Source: Acidimicrobiia bacterium (GTDB lineage: Bacteria > Acidobacteriota > Vicinamibacteria > Vicinamibacterales > UBA2999). From it: 64,000 nt of DNA. Positions 12,458 through 40,595 of this stretch are shown here, in pieces. The stretch spans positions 62,001-126,000 of the forward strand of contig VFZG01000006.1 in assembly GCA_016871275.1 (NCBI GenBank). Reading direction: 5' to 3'. The position numbers and the translations under genes were made by a program. The notes below the pieces were generated by a model that saw nothing but the letters and a program-made list of their open reading frames with translations, was not told where the DNA came from and searched no databases. Each line of letters begins with the position of its first letter. The stretch's first letter is position 1.

Positions 12458-13461
12458 CCGACGCCGCGTTCTACCACCGGCGCCGCGTGATGATCACCGG
12501 CGGACTCGGCTTCATTGGCAGCAACCTCGCGCACCGCCTGGTCGCGCTGGGCGCCGACGTGCTGCTGGTCGACTCGCTGATTCAAGACTACGGCGGCAAC
12601 CTGTTCAACATCGCCGGCATCGAGGACCGCGTGACGGTGAACGTCGCCGACGTGCGTCAGGCCAGCACCATGAATCACCTGGTGCAGGGCCGCGACGTGA
12701 TTTTCAACCTCGCCGGCCAGGTCAGCCACATCGACAGCATGCGGGATCCCCATACCGACCTCGAGATCAACTGCCGCAGCCAGCTGACGCTGCTCGAGGC
12801 GTGCCGGCATCACAATCCCGCCGCCAAGGTGATCTACGCCAGCACGCGCCAGATCTACGGCAAACCCGACGCGCTGCCCGTGACCGAGCGGCACCTGGTG
12901 CGGCCGACGGACGTGAACGGCATCAACAAGGCGGCCGGCGAGTACTACCACCTGGTCTACAACAACGTGTTCGGCGTGCGCGCGTGCGCATTGCGGCTCA
13001 CCAACGTGTACGGCCCGCGCCAGCTGCTGCGGCACGACCGGCAGGGCTTCATCGGCTGGTTCATCCGGCTCGCGCTGGAGGACAAGGAAATCCAGGTGTT
13101 CGGCGACGGGTCACAAGTGCGTGACTTCGTGTTCGTCGATGACGCCGTCGAGGCGTTCCTGGCGGCCGGGGCCACCGACACCGTCAACGGCGAGGCGTTC
13201 AACATCTGCGGGGAAGAACATCTCTCGCACCGCGATCTCGTGCAGATGCTGGTCGCGATCGCCGGCCGCGGCCGCTACCGGTTCGTCGAGTGGCCGGCCG
13301 ACAAGAAGGCGATCGACATCGGCAGTTTCTATGCCGACTCGTCGCTGTTCCGAGCGCGCACCGGGTGGATACCGTCGGTCAACCTGCGCGACGGCTTCAG
13401 CCGCACCTTCGACTACTACCGCCAGCACCTCAAAGAGTATGTCGGTGAAGGTTCCGTTTAA
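12454..13461 (+). CDS. NAD-dependent sugar epimerase/dehydratase (extended SDR) with atypical active site
   Basis: 335 aa. The Rossmann motif TGGLGFIGSN is at residues 12-21, with the FNLAGQVSH and LRLTNVYGPR segments of nucleotide-sugar epimerases. The catalytic YxxxK is replaced by NGINK (VNGINKAAGEYY), so the general-base tyrosine is missing at its usual place. I believe a subfamily with this exact feature exists, so it may be natural rather than damage. The ATG at 12454 gives the canonical N-terminus. It probably prepares a nucleotide sugar for the neighbouring aminotransferase or glycosyltransferases. Confidence 0.83.
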   Translation: MTDAAFYHRRRVMITGGLGFIGSNLAHRLVALGADVLLVDSLIQDYGGNLFNIAGIEDRVTVNVADVRQASTMNHLVQGRDVIFNLAGQVSHIDSMRDPHTDLEINCRSQLTLLEACRHHNPAAKVIYASTRQIYGKPDALPVTERHLVRPTDVNGINKAAGEYYHLVYNNVFGVRACALRLTNVYGPRQLLRHDRQGFIGWFIRLALEDKEIQVFGDGSQVRDFVFVDDAVEAFLAAGATDTVNGEAFNICGEEHLSHRDLVQMLVAIAGRGRYRFVEWPADKKAIDIGSFYADSSLFRARTGWIPSVNLRDGFSRTFDYYRQHLKEYVGEGSV

Positions 13462-14562: not shown

Positions 14563-15309
14563 ATGCGCACCACCCTTCTCACCGTGGCACTGACCGTCAG
14601 CCTTGCTGCGCCCGCCTTCGCGCGCCAGCTGAAGATCGATTTCCACGATGGCCTGGTCACCGTTGAGGCCACGGCGGTGCCAATTCGAACGATCCTCGCT
14701 GAGTGGGAGCGGATCGGCGGCACGAAGGTGGTCGGCGCTGAGCGTATTTCAGGCGCGCCGCTGACATTGAAGCTGGTGGACGTCTCCGAAGCCAGGGCGC
14801 TCGAGACCATTCTTCGTAGCGTGGCGGGCTACATGGCAGCCCCGCGCCAGGCCGACAACGCCGGGCCGTCAATGTACGACCGCATCCTGGTGATGGCCAC
14901 CTCGTCTGCGCCCGCACCGCCAGCCGCGGCGCGTCCGGCACCGGGCAACAACAATGCGATAAACAGCCCGCAGCAATTCATGCCGCCGCGTCCGCCGCAA
15001 CTCGACGAAGCCGACGACCAGGAGCCGGATGAAGAACCCGACCAGAACCCGCCGAACGCGCCGGTGTTCACGTTCCCGCAGCCGGGCGCGCCGGCCAACC
15101 AGCCGGGTCAGTTCATCGGCAACGGCGTGAACCAGCCGGGCCAGAACGTGCCGAACCAGAACCAGGGCAACATCACCATCGCTCCGTCGACACCTGGTCG
15201 TCCAATCGGCGTTTCGACGCCAGGCATGATGGTGAACCCGCCGCAACCGCAACCGCCGCAGAATCAACCCGGCTCGATGATCAGGCCGCCGGGAGGTGGC
15301 CGCCAGTAG
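14563..15309 (+). CDS. Secreted STN-domain-like protein with Pro/Asn/Gln-rich tail
   Basis: 248 aa. A signal peptide (residues 1-20, cleavage after AFA) leads into about 75 residues resembling the STN/secretin short N-terminal domain (VEATAVPIRTILAEWERIGG, then ALETILRSVAGYM). Such domains occur at the entrance of secretins and TonB receptors. The rest is low-complexity Pro-, Asn- and Gln-rich sequence with a short acidic patch (DEADDQEPDEEPD). It has no pore or barrel region and may be a periplasmic linker protein. It follows the glycan genes directly and its stop codon lies in the repeat element that follows. Confidence 0.65.
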   Translation: MRTTLLTVALTVSLAAPAFARQLKIDFHDGLVTVEATAVPIRTILAEWERIGGTKVVGAERISGAPLTLKLVDVSEARALETILRSVAGYMAAPRQADNAGPSMYDRILVMATSSAPAPPAAARPAPGNNNAINSPQQFMPPRPPQLDEADDQEPDEEPDQNPPNAPVFTFPQPGAPANQPGQFIGNGVNQPGQNVPNQNQGNITIAPSTPGRPIGVSTPGMMVNPPQPQPPQNQPGSMIRPPGGGRQ

Positions 15310-15408
15310 CCGGTAAGCCCGTAGCCCGCAGCCCGTAGCCCGCAACCCGTAGCCCGTAACCAGGAGAAATTTCGTTCTGAATACTGGATACTGGCTACTG
15401 GCTACTTC
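15303..15408. repeat. Heptanucleotide repeat element: AGCCCGT array inside inverted arms
   Basis: Six consecutive 7-nt units AGCCCGT/AGCCCGC/AACCCGT run from 15316 to 15357. They are bracketed by CCAGTAGCC (15303-15311) and its exact reverse complement GGCTACTGG (15393-15401). The right arm is itself a run of ATACTGG/CTACTGG units (15381-15408). The preceding gene's TAG stop is inside the left arm. Confidence 0.85.
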
Positions 15409-19994: not shown

Positions 19995-20753
19995 GTGGCC
20001 CCGTATCCCTCCGGCGTCAGCTACGCGTTCGGGCCCGGTGGCATCACGCCGGCCGTCAAGGTCCTGATCATCACGAACGTCGTCGCGTTCCTGCTGAACA
20101 TGATTGTCGGCGATCCGATGACCATGCGGCTCGGCCTGTCGCCGCAGGCGGTGTTCGAACAGGCGGCGCTGTGGCAGCCGTTCACCTACCTGTTCCTCCA
20201 CAGCACCGGCGGCTTCGGCCACATCCTGATCAACATGCTGTCGCTGTGGATGTTCGGCACCGAGCTGGAACGCATGTGGGGCACGCGGTTCTTCACGAAG
20301 TACTACCTGATCACCGGCATCGGCGCCGCCGCCACCACGCTGGCGCTGGCGATGTTCGTGGACGACATCTACTACCCGGTGACGGTGGGCGCGTCAGGCG
20401 TCATCTACGGATTGCTGCTGGCCTACGGCATGTACTTCCCGAACCGGCCGATCTACCTGTACTTCATCTTCCCGATTCCGGCCCGCATCTTCGTGATGAT
20501 CGTCGGCGCCATCGCGTTCATTTCGGCGATGAGCGGACCTGGCAGCGGCGTCGCGCACTCCGCGCACCTCGGCGGACTGGTGGTCGGCTACCTCTACCTG
20601 AAGACGCTGCGCTCGCGGCCGATGGACGAGCTCAAGTACCGCTACCTGCGCTGGAAGATGGGCCGCGCCCGCAACCGCTTCGACGTCTACTCAGGCGGCC
20701 GATCGCCGGATGATGACGAGTGGAAGCGCGAATGGAAGAAGCACATCCATTGA
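19995..20753 (+). CDS. Rhomboid-family intramembrane serine protease
   Basis: 252 aa with six to seven membrane segments. The catalytic serine is in GASGVIYG and the partner histidine in HSAHLGG, both in the correct helices. The conserved loop-1 WxR-like element is MWGTRFF, and HILINMLSLWMFGTELE carries the HxxxN motif. The cytoplasmic tail is basic and hydrophilic. GTG start, 3 nt after the MFS stop. The substrate is unknown. Confidence 0.88.
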   Translation: MAPYPSGVSYAFGPGGITPAVKVLIITNVVAFLLNMIVGDPMTMRLGLSPQAVFEQAALWQPFTYLFLHSTGGFGHILINMLSLWMFGTELERMWGTRFFTKYYLITGIGAAATTLALAMFVDDIYYPVTVGASGVIYGLLLAYGMYFPNRPIYLYFIFPIPARIFVMIVGAIAFISAMSGPGSGVAHSAHLGGLVVGYLYLKTLRSRPMDELKYRYLRWKMGRARNRFDVYSGGRSPDDDEWKREWKKHIH

Positions 20754-20832
20754 GAAGTGAGACGTAGGAAGTGGGAAGCAGGAGGCAACAGAGACCAGCC
20801 TCTCACTTGTCACTTCTCACTTCCTGCTTCTC
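20750..20832. repeat. Heptanucleotide repeat hairpin between convergent genes
   Basis: The left arm (about 20752-20784) repeats GAAGTGA-like 7-mers; the right arm (about 20800-20832) repeats the complement, TCACTTC-like. The arms face each other and can fold. The left arm starts at the rhomboid stop codon, and the right arm encodes the last residues of the cupin (EKQEVRSDK). It may serve as a bidirectional terminator. Confidence 0.8.
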
Positions 20833-21201
20833 CGTCGGCTTGTCGTGGAAGTAGCCGTCGGTCCTGTCCAGCCAGTCCTGCCGGATCGGGCTGAAGACAT
20901 CCATCTCGAACGTGTCGTCGATCGCTTCGGCCTGGTGCGGCACCCACGACGGGATGTGCAGCACTTCCCCTTCGCGAACCGTGATCTCCTCACCGTTGAT
21001 CAGGAACCGCAGGCCGCCCTGCAGCACGTAGGTCATCTGCTCGCTTTCGTGCGAGTGCATCGGCACGATCGCGCCGCGCTTCAGATAAATCTGCGTCACC
21101 ATTTCGCGTTCGCCGGTGATGATCTTTCGCGAGATCATCTCGGTCACTTTCTCGAGCGCGATTTCATCCCAGCGATGGAGGCGTACGGGTCGATGGCTCA
21201 T
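20803..21201 (-). CDS. Small cupin-domain protein
   Basis: 132-aa single-domain cupin. Metal ligands are visible in PMHSHESEQMTYVLQG (HxH...E) and in HIPSWVPHQAEA (second-motif His), so a metal-binding beta barrel is expected. Function is open: it could be a sugar isomerase, dioxygenase or sensor-type cupin. I chose ATG 21201; an in-frame start at 21285 would run across the divergent promoter pair. The C-terminal tail is encoded by the adjacent repeat and is unlikely to be structured. Confidence 0.8.
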   Translation of the reverse strand: MSHRPVRLHRWDEIALEKVTEMISRKIITGEREMVTQIYLKRGAIVPMHSHESEQMTYVLQGGLRFLINGEEITVREGEVLHIPSWVPHQAEAIDDTFEMDVFSPIRQDWLDRTDGYFHDKPTEKQEVRSDK

Positions 21202-21238
21202 GTCGGTAAGTGTCTCACGGCGTGTGAATTCGGGGCGG

Positions 21239-21266
21239 ATTATAGCACCCGCCCGGATGATATAAT
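21239..21266. promoter_or_regulatory. Interleaved divergent extended -10 promoters
   Basis: Two perfect TATAAT boxes face away from the shared gap, each with a TGN extension. The minus box is TGCTATAAT with its hexamer at 21244-21239; the plus box is TGATATAAT with its hexamer at 21261-21266. At 17-bp spacing each promoter's -35 position falls on the other's -10. The plus start would be near 21273, 2-3 nt before ATG 21276; the minus start near 21232. Confidence 0.65.
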
Positions 21267-21275
21267 TTTCCCCGC

Positions 21276-23417
21276 ATGAAGGCATCGACGCTCGCCTCCG
21301 GGACCGACGCGCGCCCCGTCACCAGCGCACGTTGGGAAGGCCTCTCATCCGACGATTTGCGGCGGGCGTATCGCACGATGCTCCTGTCGCGGCGGCTCGA
21401 CGACAAGGAGATCCAGCTCAAGAATCAGAGCTTGATCTTCTTCCAGATCAGCGGTGCCGGGCACGAAGCGGTGCTCTCGGCCGCGGGCCATCACCTGCGT
21501 CCCGGCTACGACTGGTTCTATCCCTACTATCGCGATCGCGCGCTCTGCCTCACGCTCGGCGTGACCTCGACCGAAATGCTGCTCGCCTCGGCGGGCGCGA
21601 AGGACGATCCAAGTTCCGGCGGCCGCCAGATGCCGTCGCACTGGGGACATCGCGCGCTGAACATCCCGTCGCAGGGCAGCACCACCGGCACGCAGTGCCT
21701 GCATGCGGTCGGCGCCGGCGAAGCCGGCATGATCTACCAGCGCGTCACCACCATCCCGGATCGCGCCGAGCGGTTCCACGCCGACGAAATCACCTATCTG
21801 TCGATCGGTGAAGGCGCCACCAGCGAAGGCGAATTCTGGGAGTCGCTCAACACCGCCTGCACGCGACCGGTGCCGGTGCTCTATCTCGTCGAGGACAACG
21901 GCTACGCGATCTCCGTCCCGGTCGAAGTGCAGACCGCCGGCGGCGACGTGTCGCGACTGGTCGAATCGTTCCCGAACCTGAAGCTGTGGCGCTGCGACGG
22001 CACCGATTTCCTCGACAGCTACCGCACCCTCGGTGAGGCCGTCGCCTACGTGCGCCGCGAGCGCAAGCCGGCGTTCGTCCACGCCAAGGTGATTCGCCCA
22101 TACTCACATTCGTTGTCGGACGATGAGCGGCTCTACAAGACGCCGGAGGAGCGCAAGGCCGAGGCGTTGCGGGATCCGCTGACGAAGATGCGCGCCTTCC
22201 TGATCAAGGAACAGATCGCGGCTGAAGCGGACCTCGACGCGATCCTGGCATCGGTCGATCGCGAGATCGCCGAAGCCACCGACGTCGCGCTGAAGGCGCC
22301 CAAGCCGACCGTCGACACCGCCGACTGGTTCGTGTTCTCGCCGACGGTGGACCCGACGTCGAGCGCGTTCGAGTCCGCCGCGCAGCCCGAAGGCAAGCCC
22401 GACACCATGGTCGCGGCCATCAATCGCACGATGAAGGACGAAATGGCGCGCAACCCGCGCATCGTCGTGTTCGGCGAGGACGTGGCGGATGCGAGCAAGC
22501 CGTCAGCGCTGGGGCACGTGCCCGGCAAGGGCGGCGTGTTCAAAGTGACGCACGGCTTGCAGAAGGCCTATGGCGGCGATCGGGTGTTCAACTCGCCGCT
22601 CGCCGAAGCCAACATTGTCGGCCGCGCCGTCGGCATGGCCACCCGCGGACTCAAGCCGGTCGTCGAGATCCAGTTCTTCGACTACATCTGGCCGGCGATG
22701 ATGCAGCTGAAGGACGAAATGTCGATGCTGCGCTACCGCTCGGGCAACAACTGGTCCTGCCCGATGGTGGTGCGCGTGCCGATTGGCGGCTACCTGCGCG
22801 GCGGCGCGCCCTACCATAGTCAGTCTGGCGTCAGCATCTTCGCGCACTGCCCAGGCGTGCGGATTGTGTTCCCGAGCAACGCCATCGACGCGGCCGGCCT
22901 GCTGCGCACCTCGATTCGATGCGACGATCCGGTGCTGTATCTCGAGCACAAGCATTTGTATCGCCAGACCTACAACAAGGGCGCCTATCCCGGCGCCCAC
23001 TACATGATTCCGTTCGGCAAGGGCGCGCTGCGCCGCGACGGCACCGACATGGTGGTGCTGACGTGGGGCGCGCTGGTGCAGCGCTCGCTGCTGGCCGCCC
23101 AGCAGGCCGAGAAGGACGGCATCAGCGTGGCGGTGTTCGACCTGCGCACCATCATGCCGTACGACTGGGACGGCATTGCGGAACTCGTCCGGAGGACCAG
23201 CAAGGCAATCGTCGCGCACGAGGACACTTTGACCTGCGGCTTCGGCGCCGAGATTGCCGCGCGAATTGGCGAAGAGCTGTTCGAGGACCTCGACGCGCCG
23301 GTCCGACGGGTCGCCGCGCTCGATTGCCCGGTGGCGTACTGCCCCGAACTCGAGGAGAGAATCCTGCCGCAGTCCTCGGACGTGCTCGCCGCCATCAAGA
23401 CGCTCGCCGCATACTGA
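21276..23417 (+). CDS. Fused E1 alpha-beta 2-oxoacid dehydrogenase (branched-chain type)
   Basis: Thiamine-diphosphate decarboxylase/dehydrogenase of 713 aa in which the E1 alpha (about residues 28-365) and E1 beta (about 378-713) subunits are joined. The ThDP motif is [13 protein letters not shown]...EDNGYAIS. The beta half has [25 protein letters not shown] and the transketolase C-terminal domain. The best match is 2-oxoisovalerate/branched-chain dehydrogenase, but acetoin or pyruvate cannot be excluded. E2 and E3 partners are not nearby. The start is ATG 21276, directly behind a strong extended -10. Confidence 0.85.
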
Positions 23418-23513
23418 CCAGTGAGAAGCGAGAAGTAGGCAGTGAGAATCGCGTTCCTTCTCACCGCTCACGTCTCACTTCTCACGTCTCACTTCTGTCT
23501 TCTCACTGCGACC
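23418..23513. repeat. Heptanucleotide repeat hairpin that enters a coding region
   Basis: Left arm (23420-23448) has GTGAGAA/GCGAGAA 7-mers; right arm (23456-23509) has six CACTTCT/CACGTCT-type units in register. From GTG 23442 the right arm is read as protein, and because 7 nt x 3 is 21 nt it yields a 7-residue peptide repeat (LLTAHVS, LLTSHFC, LLTATAE). Confidence 0.82.
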
Positions 23514-24485
23514 GCCGAGCGCCCGTCCCCAGGCACTGTCGAAGTCCTCAGCGCCGTCAACGCTCTCGCGCCCCATGTCGTGGGGCTGTTCCGCGATCCA
23601 GTCGGTTTCAAGCAAACCGCCAACGGCGAGTTCTACGTGTTCGATCGACGCGGCCACACGGTGTTCGCGGTCGGCGAGGCCGGGCAGTCGGCGCAACGCC
23701 TCGTGCAGATTGGCGCGGAAGACGGGCGGCTGATCGAGCCGAGCGCGTTCGATGTGGCGCTCAACGGCAGCTTCGCGGTGTCGGATGCGCCCAACGGCCG
23801 CGAGCGCGTGCAGCTGTTCGACGCCGGCGGCGTGCGCACCGGCGGTTTCATTTTGCCGGGGCGCGGTTCCTCGCGAGTGGTGTTTGGCACGCTGGCGCTC
23901 AACGGCGTCGGCACGTTGTCGTTCAACGGGCGCACGGTGTTGATGAGCCATCCGGAAAGCGGCTGGCTGATGTCGGAGTATGCGCTGGACGGCACGCCGC
24001 TGCGGTCAATCGGTCAACTCCGCAAGACCGGACACGAAAGCGACCGTGATCTCCACCTGGCGCTGAACGCCGGTGTGCCGATCGCGGATCCGAACGGCGG
24101 GTTCTATTTCGTGTTCATGGCGGGCCAGCCGGCGTTCAGGAAGTACGACGACACGGGTGAGCTGGTTTATGAGCGGATCGTCCAGGGCCGGGAGGTAGAC
24201 CCCTTGGTGCGCGCTTTGCCCGATCGGTGGCCGCGACGCAGGGTTGGTGAACTGCCGCTGGTCGCTCCCACGGTCAGGACCGCAGCGGTGGATCGATCCG
24301 GCCGGCTGTGGATCTCGTTCGTGATTCCGTTTTCGTACGTCTACGACGTCTCCGGCGAGAAGACCCGCACGGTTCAGTTCCGCGGCGCGGGGATCATCGC
24401 GCCATCGAGCTTGTCGTTCAACGATCGCGGCCGGGTGCTGGTCACACCCGGGTGTTATGAGTTTTCCGTCGATCGGCAGCTATAA
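23442..24485 (+). CDS. Secreted beta-propeller-like protein
   Basis: 347 aa from GTG 23442. The N-terminal ~26 residues form a hydrophobic signal peptide encoded by the heptamer repeat. The mature part shows repeated short beta motifs such as GEFYVFDRRGHTVFAVGE, NGSFAVSDAPNGRERVQLFD and NGGFYFVFMAG, resembling NHL/6-bladed propeller proteins. No catalytic residue is recognised. If the repeat were excluded from the gene no exported start would remain, so the repeat seems to be used as the export signal. The next gene starts after a 16-nt gap. Confidence 0.6.
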   Translation: MRIAFLLTAHVSLLTSHFCLLTATAERPSPGTVEVLSAVNALAPHVVGLFRDPVGFKQTANGEFYVFDRRGHTVFAVGEAGQSAQRLVQIGAEDGRLIEPSAFDVALNGSFAVSDAPNGRERVQLFDAGGVRTGGFILPGRGSSRVVFGTLALNGVGTLSFNGRTVLMSHPESGWLMSEYALDGTPLRSIGQLRKTGHESDRDLHLALNAGVPIADPNGGFYFVFMAGQPAFRKYDDTGELVYERIVQGREVDPLVRALPDRWPRRRVGELPLVAPTVRTAAVDRSGRLWISFVIPFSYVYDVSGEKTRTVQFRGAGIIAPSSLSFNDRGRVLVTPGCYEFSVDRQL

Positions 24486-40077: not shown

Positions 40078-40113
40078 GCAGGGATCGGGGATCAGGGATC
40101 AGGGATCAGGGGT
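40078..40113. repeat. GATCAGG heptamer array
   Basis: GATCGGG then three perfect GATCAGG units in 7-nt register (40083-40110). Read on the minus strand, it encodes the last residues (LIPDP) and stop of the CMD-like protein. Confidence 0.85.
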
Positions 40114-40595
40114 CTCGGAGTCCGTGAGTTCAGGACCATCGCCAGCAGCGCATAGTAGCCGCAAATCGCCATGGCATCCATCGTGCCCTGCTCACCAATC
40201 ACCTCGTGCGCCCTGGCGCGGAGGGCTGGCGACACGCTCCGGTCTTTGTGGAGGGCGTTGCAGATGTCGTAGACGACCTGCTCAACGTGCTCGAGGTTCG
40301 GCGGCGGCACCTGTGCCCACAGCGCGTCGATCTTCACTTGTGAGAGACCGGCCGCCAGGGCGATCGGCGCGTGAACCTCCCACTCGAACTGCTGACGCCA
40401 ACAGGCGGCCGTGACGAGAATCGCCAGTTCACTGAGCCGGGGCGGCAGCGCGCTGCGGTAACGAAGGTATTCACCGAGCGCGCTGACGCGATTCATCAGC
40501 TCCGGGCTGACCAGCAGATCGAGAAACGGCCCAAACGGCTCCACGCCGCGAACGCGCTTGAACTCTTCGATGGCGCGCAGCCGATCGGCCGTCAT
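40092..40595 (-). CDS. Carboxymuconolactone-decarboxylase-family protein
   Basis: 167-aa all-helical protein. LPPRLSELAILVTAACWRQQFEWEVHAPIAL matches the CMD core, but the CxxC pair of AhpD-type members is absent, so a redox role is unlikely. CMD relatives act on lactone or peroxide substrates; which one cannot be told. It lies 10 nt after the class V aminotransferase and ends in the repeat. The protein end is therefore probably unrelated to its fold. Confidence 0.78.
   Translation of the reverse strand: MTADRLRAIEEFKRVRGVEPFGPFLDLLVSPELMNRVSALGEYLRYRSALPPRLSELAILVTAACWRQQFEWEVHAPIALAAGLSQVKIDALWAQVPPPNLEHVEQVVYDICNALHKDRSVSPALRARAHEVIGEQGTMDAMAICGYYALLAMVLNSRTPRPLIPDP

Follow-up and report, generated by a model that had tools for sequence, protein, structure and literature searches.

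A gene-end heptamer hairpin likely co-opted as the signal peptide of an NHL-repeat protein in Acidobacteriota

Repeat-derived signal peptides and heptamer hairpins are each known in bacteria, separately: the former from RU-2 and the latter from Xanthomonas. RU-2, a small mobile sequence of enterobacteria, forms part of the predicted signal peptide of YPO1552; it is a 168-bp MITE-like unit described at a few loci (PMC2759123). The GGGAATC and GGGGA(C/T)T heptameric repeats of Xanthomonas and Nostoc have been studied as G-quadruplexes (PMC4692102). The Xanthomonas repeats resemble the element described here in being scattered as heptamer arrays (two genomes have 70 and 75 close inverted pairs) and in lying, when downstream of an ORF, mostly less than 50 bp from stop codons and on the coding strand (PMC4692102). 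A third system, the TAACTGA heptamer repeats of Beggiatoaceae and other bacteria, is similar in that one orientation is stopped in every frame and the other is open, and some of its copies fall within ORFs, mostly near their ends; it differs in consisting of direct repeats (169 sets, one indirect) found mostly just upstream of starts (PMC4679880). The term "signal peptide" has no occurrences in the main text of PMC4692102 and none in PMC4679880. Rickettsia palindromic elements are palindromic repeats that are translated as parts of proteins, but they are longer units inserted inside proteins and are not known as recurrent N-terminal export signals. We recognized no description of heptamer repeats acting as signal peptides in the full-text literature searched.

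The element described here lies in a 64,000-nucleotide stretch (the window) of contig VFZG01000006.1, part of a 3.96-Mb acidobacteriotal genome in 124 contigs (GCA_016871275.1; hereafter G000). A gene for a fused E1 dehydrogenase/transketolase-type protein (Pfam; 21276–23417, plus strand) stops 1 nt before a heptamer element, whose purine-rich left arm of GTGAGAA-like units (23419–23448) precedes a pyrimidine-rich right arm of TTCTCAC-like units (23457–23508). TRF detects arrays with periods of 14 and 21 nt within 23457–23507, and a repeat search of the window found 23419–23448 and 23479–23508 to be an inverted pair with 80% complementarity. None of 200 dinucleotide shuffles reached the short-period score of this junction, and none reached its inverted-repeat score. 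Rfam gave only two matches, both far under the gathering score. The gene downstream (23442–24485, plus strand) encodes a 347-residue NHL-repeat protein (Pfam NHL, E 2e-5), a putative beta-propeller that we propose is exported. A scan of genome contigs found three relatives of this protein at 67–73% identity in Acidobacteriota / Acidobacteria MAGs; structure prediction was uninformative (mean pLDDT 39 from a 4-row alignment).

The reading frame of the NHL gene and the forcing of its start into the element are shown. Within the left arm, the in-frame stop TAG 23436–23438 is separated by one codon from GTG 23442–23444, which is followed by AGA (Arg), so that the product would begin Met-Arg; the ORF runs for 347 codons to 24485. 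The next ATG, GTG, or TTG in frame is GTG 23580 (residue 47), which lies within the conserved domain; conservation with relatives begins ahead of it, at about residue 29–30. Because TAG 23436 precedes GTG 23442 and GTG 23580 lies in the conserved domain, the N-terminus is coded by the hairpin (MRIAFLLTAHVSLLTSHFCLLTATA^E). Residues 1 to about 22 come from the hairpin itself (MRIAFLLTAHVSLLTSHFCLLT) and are followed by ATAERPSPG. A first-pass annotation had claimed that the right arm is in frame from GTG 23442, that its 7-nt period yields a 7-residue peptide repeat, and that the units are LLTAHVS, LLTSHFC, and LLTATAE. All of this held: ORF and translation agree, the three units are present in residues 1–25, and the same heptapeptide arises in every frame.

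The proposed signal peptide comprises 25 codons (23442–23516), with Arg at position 2, a hydrophobic segment of LLTxHxS stretches from the right arm, and an AxA-type cleavage site, ATA^E; it was recognized by rules of thumb for hydropathy, charge, and AxA sites and not by SignalP. On a crude scale, the best 10-residue Kyte-Doolittle mean within the first 40 residues, it scores 1.93. All 14 hand-picked conventional signal peptides score higher (1.94–3.14), and two of 17 hand-picked cytosolic-looking N-termini, which range from 0.23 to 2.10, exceed it. Element-coded N-termini from TTCTGCC-like heptamers reach 2.42–3.07; TTCTCAC contributes one His per coded unit. For L017 the best-scoring 10 residues fell after the signal peptide. 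The peptide thus looks weak but holds all the parts of a signal peptide, and by these rules of thumb, without a trained predictor, it meets the sequence criteria for a Sec-type (SPase I) signal. Its position at the true N-terminus of an exported protein is inferred, in the absence of protein data, from the forced start and from the hydrophobic N-terminal segments of most orthologues (see below).

The coding properties of the element follow from its period. Seven is not a multiple of three, and therefore each strand gives one heptapeptide in all frames. TTCTCAC is read as FSLLTSH, TTCTGCC as FCLLPSA, and TTTTGCC as FCLLPFA, while their complements give VRSEK-stop-E, GRRQKAE, and GKRQKAK, respectively. 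The pyrimidine strand is stop-free and codes hydrophobic peptides rich in Leu, Phe, Ser, and Thr; the purine strand is rich in Arg, Lys, and Glu, and the GTGAGAA heptamer adds TGA stops in all frames as well as GTG-AGA (Met-Arg). TTG also occurs within heptamer arrays. Owing to this strand coding, reading into the hairpin tends to stop, whereas reading out of it, starting in the last purine units, gives a positive n-region followed by a hydrophobic h-region. Across heptamer classes, hydropathy climbs with the number of pyrimidines, and every class that has six or seven of them is open; among open classes TTCTCAC stands at the 76th percentile and TTCTGCC at the 93rd. Under a fixed rule (peak of at least 1.9 and charge of at least +1) applied to 82 read-outs from 41 two-armed copies, 12 of the 82 were signal-peptide-like, compared with a mean of 3.5 and a largest value of 7 in 50 shuffle sets and with 2 of 82 when the arms were swapped. 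Arm order therefore matters, yet most read-outs fail the rule.

That the element belongs to a dispersed family is shown by pattern searches. With up to two mismatches, TTCTCACNTCTCAC has 10 matches in the window (100 shuffles: mean 1.16, largest 4), and with up to one mismatch it has 126 in the genome (61 forward, 65 reverse), while a reversed-pattern control gave 0. The exact TTCTCAC pair TTCTCACTTCTCAC occurs 20 times in G000 and 0, 3, and 3 times in three genomes of the same genus (G001, G002, and G007, respectively); the exact TTCTGCC pair TTCTGCCTTCTGCC is absent from G000 and occurs 178, 137, and 65 times in those genomes. Each well-stocked genome in the genus has its own dominant heptamer, and sister species hardly overlap. 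This near non-overlap suggests that the repeat unit has been exchanged throughout a genome, by a process that is unknown. Across the genomes sampled, TTCTCAC was found in 14 of 79 and TTCTGCC in 13 of 79, with one to a few control matches in some; G032, outside the genus, has 66 TTCTCAC matches.

We examined 117 copies, a subset of the matches (53 in G000, 20 in G001, 23 in G002, and 21 in G007). Both arms were recognized in 42 of the 117, and in 42 of 42 the purine arm comes first, in none the pyrimidine arm; the opposite order was seen in one case elsewhere, with another heptamer (L049 in G053). In G000, the 42 copies placed relative to their neighbors lie between codirectional (21), convergent (15), or divergent (2) genes or overlap an ORF (4). 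The neighboring gene stops −20 to +30 nt from the element edge in 24 of the 28 cases with a plus-strand gene on the left and in 17 of the 23 with a minus-strand gene on the right. The purine strand thus adjoins the stop codon of the upstream gene in an inverted heptamer arrangement, and the family-level criterion is met. One further copy in the window, detected by heptamer pattern matches, sits between convergent genes at 20750–20831. There, a cupin-like gene on the minus strand (20803–21285) has its C-terminal EVRSDK-stop coded by the element, and the plus-strand gene on the other side, which we take to be rhomboid-like, stops within the first heptamer. Further period-7 arrays occur at gene ends in the window at 15302–15358 (GCCCGTA) and 40079–40111 (CAGGGAT), the latter coding the C-terminal PLIPDP-stop of a minus-strand gene (40092–40595).

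Such placement raises the alternative that the element is chiefly a transcription terminator or a stabilizer of mRNA 3′ ends, its signal-peptide role being a side effect tolerated because signal peptides are permissive. The gene-end positions in G000 favor this, as does the fold of RNA 23415–23515 (−37.7 kcal/mol, z −3.05; 3 of 200 shuffles fold equally well). However, a consensus scan for intrinsic terminators (GC-rich stem plus U-tract) called no site on the window element, and a terminator or stabilizer would account for the position of the element but not for exported genes that start within it. We lean away from this alternative as the chief explanation; it is in any case compatible with co-option of the hairpin as a signal peptide, which is our preferred reading.

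Comparison of orthologues at the same slot is the first support for co-option beyond the locus itself. NHL matches, some partial or weak, were found in 107 of 198 genomes searched, and full-length orthologues are 44–74% identical. Of 86 orthologue loci fetched, one without upstream DNA (L044) was left out, leaving 85 junctions including that of G000. The E1 gene lies upstream in most; its C-terminus pattern was found in 75 of 86, one of them false (L036). By eye, most of the 86 N-termini have a hydrophobic segment after the start codon. Two members of the genus (G004 and G008) lack the hairpin and have unrelated signal peptides with a possible TTG start overlapping the E1 stop (e.g., MRRISAALLVFLSATTA). 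Four genomes have a hairpin repeat in frame with the NHL gene in this slot: besides the TTCTCAC-like hairpin of G000, there are hairpins built of TTCTGCC in G001 and G002 (LVPSAFCLVPSALCLV and FLPSAFCLLPSALCLLP) and one of TTCCTTT-like units in G007 (MKAALLALTFSFFVFPFDF). That orthologues carry other signal peptides or other heptamers is shown. It bears directly on the first-pass annotation, which had proposed that the repeat is the export signal of a propeller-like protein, that orthologues lacking it should have an unrelated signal peptide, and that the idea would fail if orthologues started downstream without an export signal or shared a conserved non-repeat signal peptide. The predicted repeat-free orthologues were found (G004 and G008), and neither refutation was: most N-termini are hydrophobic, conservation begins at residue 29–30, and no conserved non-repeat signal peptide was found, the G004 and G008 peptides being unrelated and G001, G002, and G007 having other-heptamer hairpins. 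The export-signal claim is thus supported by comparison but not by experiment; translation from GTG 23442, export, and cleavage are inferred.

When junctions were tested for a period of 6–9 nt and for an inverted repeat (each p ≤ 0.005 by 200 shuffles), 13 of 85 had both and 29 of 85 at least one. By eye, the repeat of seven of the 13 lies inside the NHL N-terminus (L031, L032, L033, L036, L062, L073, and L085), that of four lies upstream of the start and not in it (L049, L057, L059, and L066), and the placement of two is ambiguous (L055 and L080). In one pair of close relatives, G036 and G032, identity over the final 300 nt of E1 is 95% and the NHL genes have a common start, GTG AAC AAY CGC, but the signal peptide of G036 contains a 105-nt in-frame block of pyrimidine heptamers, which was either gained there or lost from G032. 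In other genomes, hairpins or arrays of period 8 or 9 code hydrophobic N-termini of orthologues (L062, L073, L160, and L249), of the kinds GGTGCTCCA, CTCTGCGTG, GGTGCTGA, and ACCGAGAC.

The slot could instead have been filled by one ancestral acquisition, with loss in the G004/G008 lineage and later rewriting of heptamers by genome-specific homogenization. In the NHL tree, G000 and G007 are sisters (support 100/99), while G001 plus G002 (87/84) and G004 plus G008 (87/87) are less firmly grouped; the tree forces no more than one change, and it neither requires nor excludes several origins. Also in favor, three gene families have different heptamers in the same slots of the sisters G000 and G007, and G001 and G002 have a similar loop in the gene of L227/L285. 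Against it, hairpins in a TPR family are confined to G000 and G007, with different heptamers, and are absent from seven other members of the genus, and the hairpins of more distant NHL orthologues are unrelated and have a period of 7, 8, or 9. We hold a single acquisition to be possible but not quite as probable as its alternatives. Co-option, the reading we prefer, allows both recruitment in each species and rewriting of an inherited hairpin, and the tree permits one origin.

Element-coded N-termini recur beyond the NHL gene. Among 108 downstream frames, a count that includes shadow frames, 11 fusions were detected automatically. Eight are signal-peptide-like: those of the window, L017, L117, L124, and L277 in G000, L227 in G002, and L285 and L286 in G001. 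Three are not, one lying inside a long membrane-protein ORF (L213) and two inside soluble proteins (L229 and L300). Inspection by eye added L001, L004, L133, and L278 (G000), L202 and L216 (G007), and L231 (G002), as well as, among orthologues, the NHL genes of G001, G002, and G007 together with L182 and L241 (G007) and L244 (G001). The total of 21 element-coded N-termini in 13 gene families (nine in G000, four in G001, three in G002, and five in G007) thus combines the automatic test with judgement by eye, and several starts were picked by eye. In L004 and L133 the element supplies only the start and first residues, and in L202 only the n-region. Examples from G000 are a PQQ dehydrogenase (MRSYASAFLLLPSLFSLLTSTASA^Q), two TPR proteins (MRSRKRSMLLTCYFSLLTSPAFA^Q and MRTIVLTSLFSLLASPAIA^Q), and a TonB receptor (...LFLFTSHFSLLTSADA^A). 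Pfam identified the mature proteins as TonB receptor, PQQ dehydrogenase, BamB-like PQQ_2, glutamine cyclotransferase, TPM domain, and M14 carboxypeptidase, with a BNR match below the cut-off; those of L202 and L231 had no Pfam match. Where named by Pfam, the mature proteins mostly fit export, while the TPR proteins are uninformative.

Other families show the same exchange within a slot. The G007 orthologue of the first TPR protein (L017) begins MRKAKGKMQKAKPIFFCLLPFAFCLSLPVTPASA^Q, coded by G007's own hairpin, and the seven other genus members have unrelated signal peptides. The L004 family has heptamer arrays in G000, G001, G002, and G007, which differ except that TTCTGCC is common to G001 and G002; G005 is conventional-looking, and a palindromic repeat of another kind is present in G004 (the sample lacks G008 and has only a partial G003 sequence). 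For the L124 family, the heptamer is seen in G000, an octamer array in G008, and a different palindrome in both G001 and G004; the G003 N-terminus is conventional. A different palindromic repeat, of GCGATGGCTTCAGCCATCGC / GTCCGGCTTTAGCCGGAC type, was also observed in signal-peptide-like N-terminal DNA of L162 (G001) and of L164 and L247 (G004), and therefore recruitment may not be limited to heptamers. Coding use of a further kind occurs in G000, where two copies (L024 and L025; C41:10232–10304 and 12577–12604) lie in frame inside one gene, which we take to be DNA polymerase III alpha/DnaE2-like, apparently as extra loops; this protein also shows a 7-residue repeat, SRYSVAG SQYLVAG.

The simplest rival explanation is spurious extension, in which the NHL protein is cytosolic and truly starts at GTG 23580, and the element is a non-coding gene-end hairpin whose open frame is a by-product. 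In its favor, an open extension proves nothing alone, because arithmetic alone keeps every frame of a pyrimidine-rich heptamer open, and 97 of the 108 downstream frames are not fused. Against it, conservation covers residues before 47, and element-free orthologues have hydrophobic N-termini of their own at that place. Moreover, cytosolic-looking neighbors of other copies, which from their N-termini we take to be adenylosuccinate synthetase-like, AccD-like, and Lon-like, retain an ATG or GTG beyond the element. We consider spurious extension very improbable. Some exported neighbors (L021, L132, L212, L226, and L228) also retain their own signal peptide after the element.

Taken together, these observations indicate that a gene-end heptamer hairpin has likely been co-opted as a Sec-type signal peptide of the downstream NHL-repeat protein, with translation from GTG 23442, export, cleavage, and selection all inferred. 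As a putative mechanism, gene-end hairpins would spread through genomes by an unknown means; where the next gene is codirectional and its product exported, a fast-evolving, permissive signal peptide may be replaced by the read-out of the hairpin, and an exported protein adopting a hairpin would then need only an AxA-like site. The main strength of this reading is that the pattern recurs over genes and species; it is weak in lacking any protein-level evidence. Counting against it are the many unfused copies, coding use beyond signal peptides, the weak peptide of the window, and the lack of proteomic, transcript, or SignalP support. A bolder reading is that purine-first hairpins form a portable cassette for gene boundaries, combining stops in all frames, a start codon, a charged n-region, and a hydrophobic h-region, that has repeatedly replaced the signal peptides of exported proteins in this Acidobacteriota lineage, the slot being kept while the heptamer is rewritten in each genome. 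We offer it tentatively, as the evidence falls a little short of favoring it.

Relative to the described systems, the family meets the criteria of the Xanthomonas kind in having tandem heptamers in many dispersed, inverted copies, but it shares neither the heptamer nor the G-quadruplex runs: GTGAGAA/TTCTCAC has no runs of three G, and by our own translation the complement of GGGAATC would not be Leu-rich, unlike the pyrimidine arm here. It differs from RU-2 in being a short-period heptamer hairpin with all frames open, found at many genes and with species-specific heptamers. Relative to the literature searched, what is new is that such use recurs, that the same genes carry different heptamers in different species, and that the makeup of the hairpin itself explains why it can work.

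The origin of new signal peptides is rarely traceable, because signal peptides evolve fast and keep little homology. Here the source is visible in the DNA, as a mostly non-coding repeat that, through its strand composition and period, is ready to act as an export signal whichever frame is read. The further claim of the first-pass annotation, that this is a route by which a non-coding repeat becomes a secretion signal, is supported in that the same is seen in further genes and genomes, with selection inferred. Our results suggest that annotators should keep N-termini of this kind instead of cutting them off as errors. Natural series of orthologues that carry or lack the repeat (G036 versus G032, and G000 versus G004 and G008) are at hand, and they make the passage from intergenic repeat to targeting signal a testable route.
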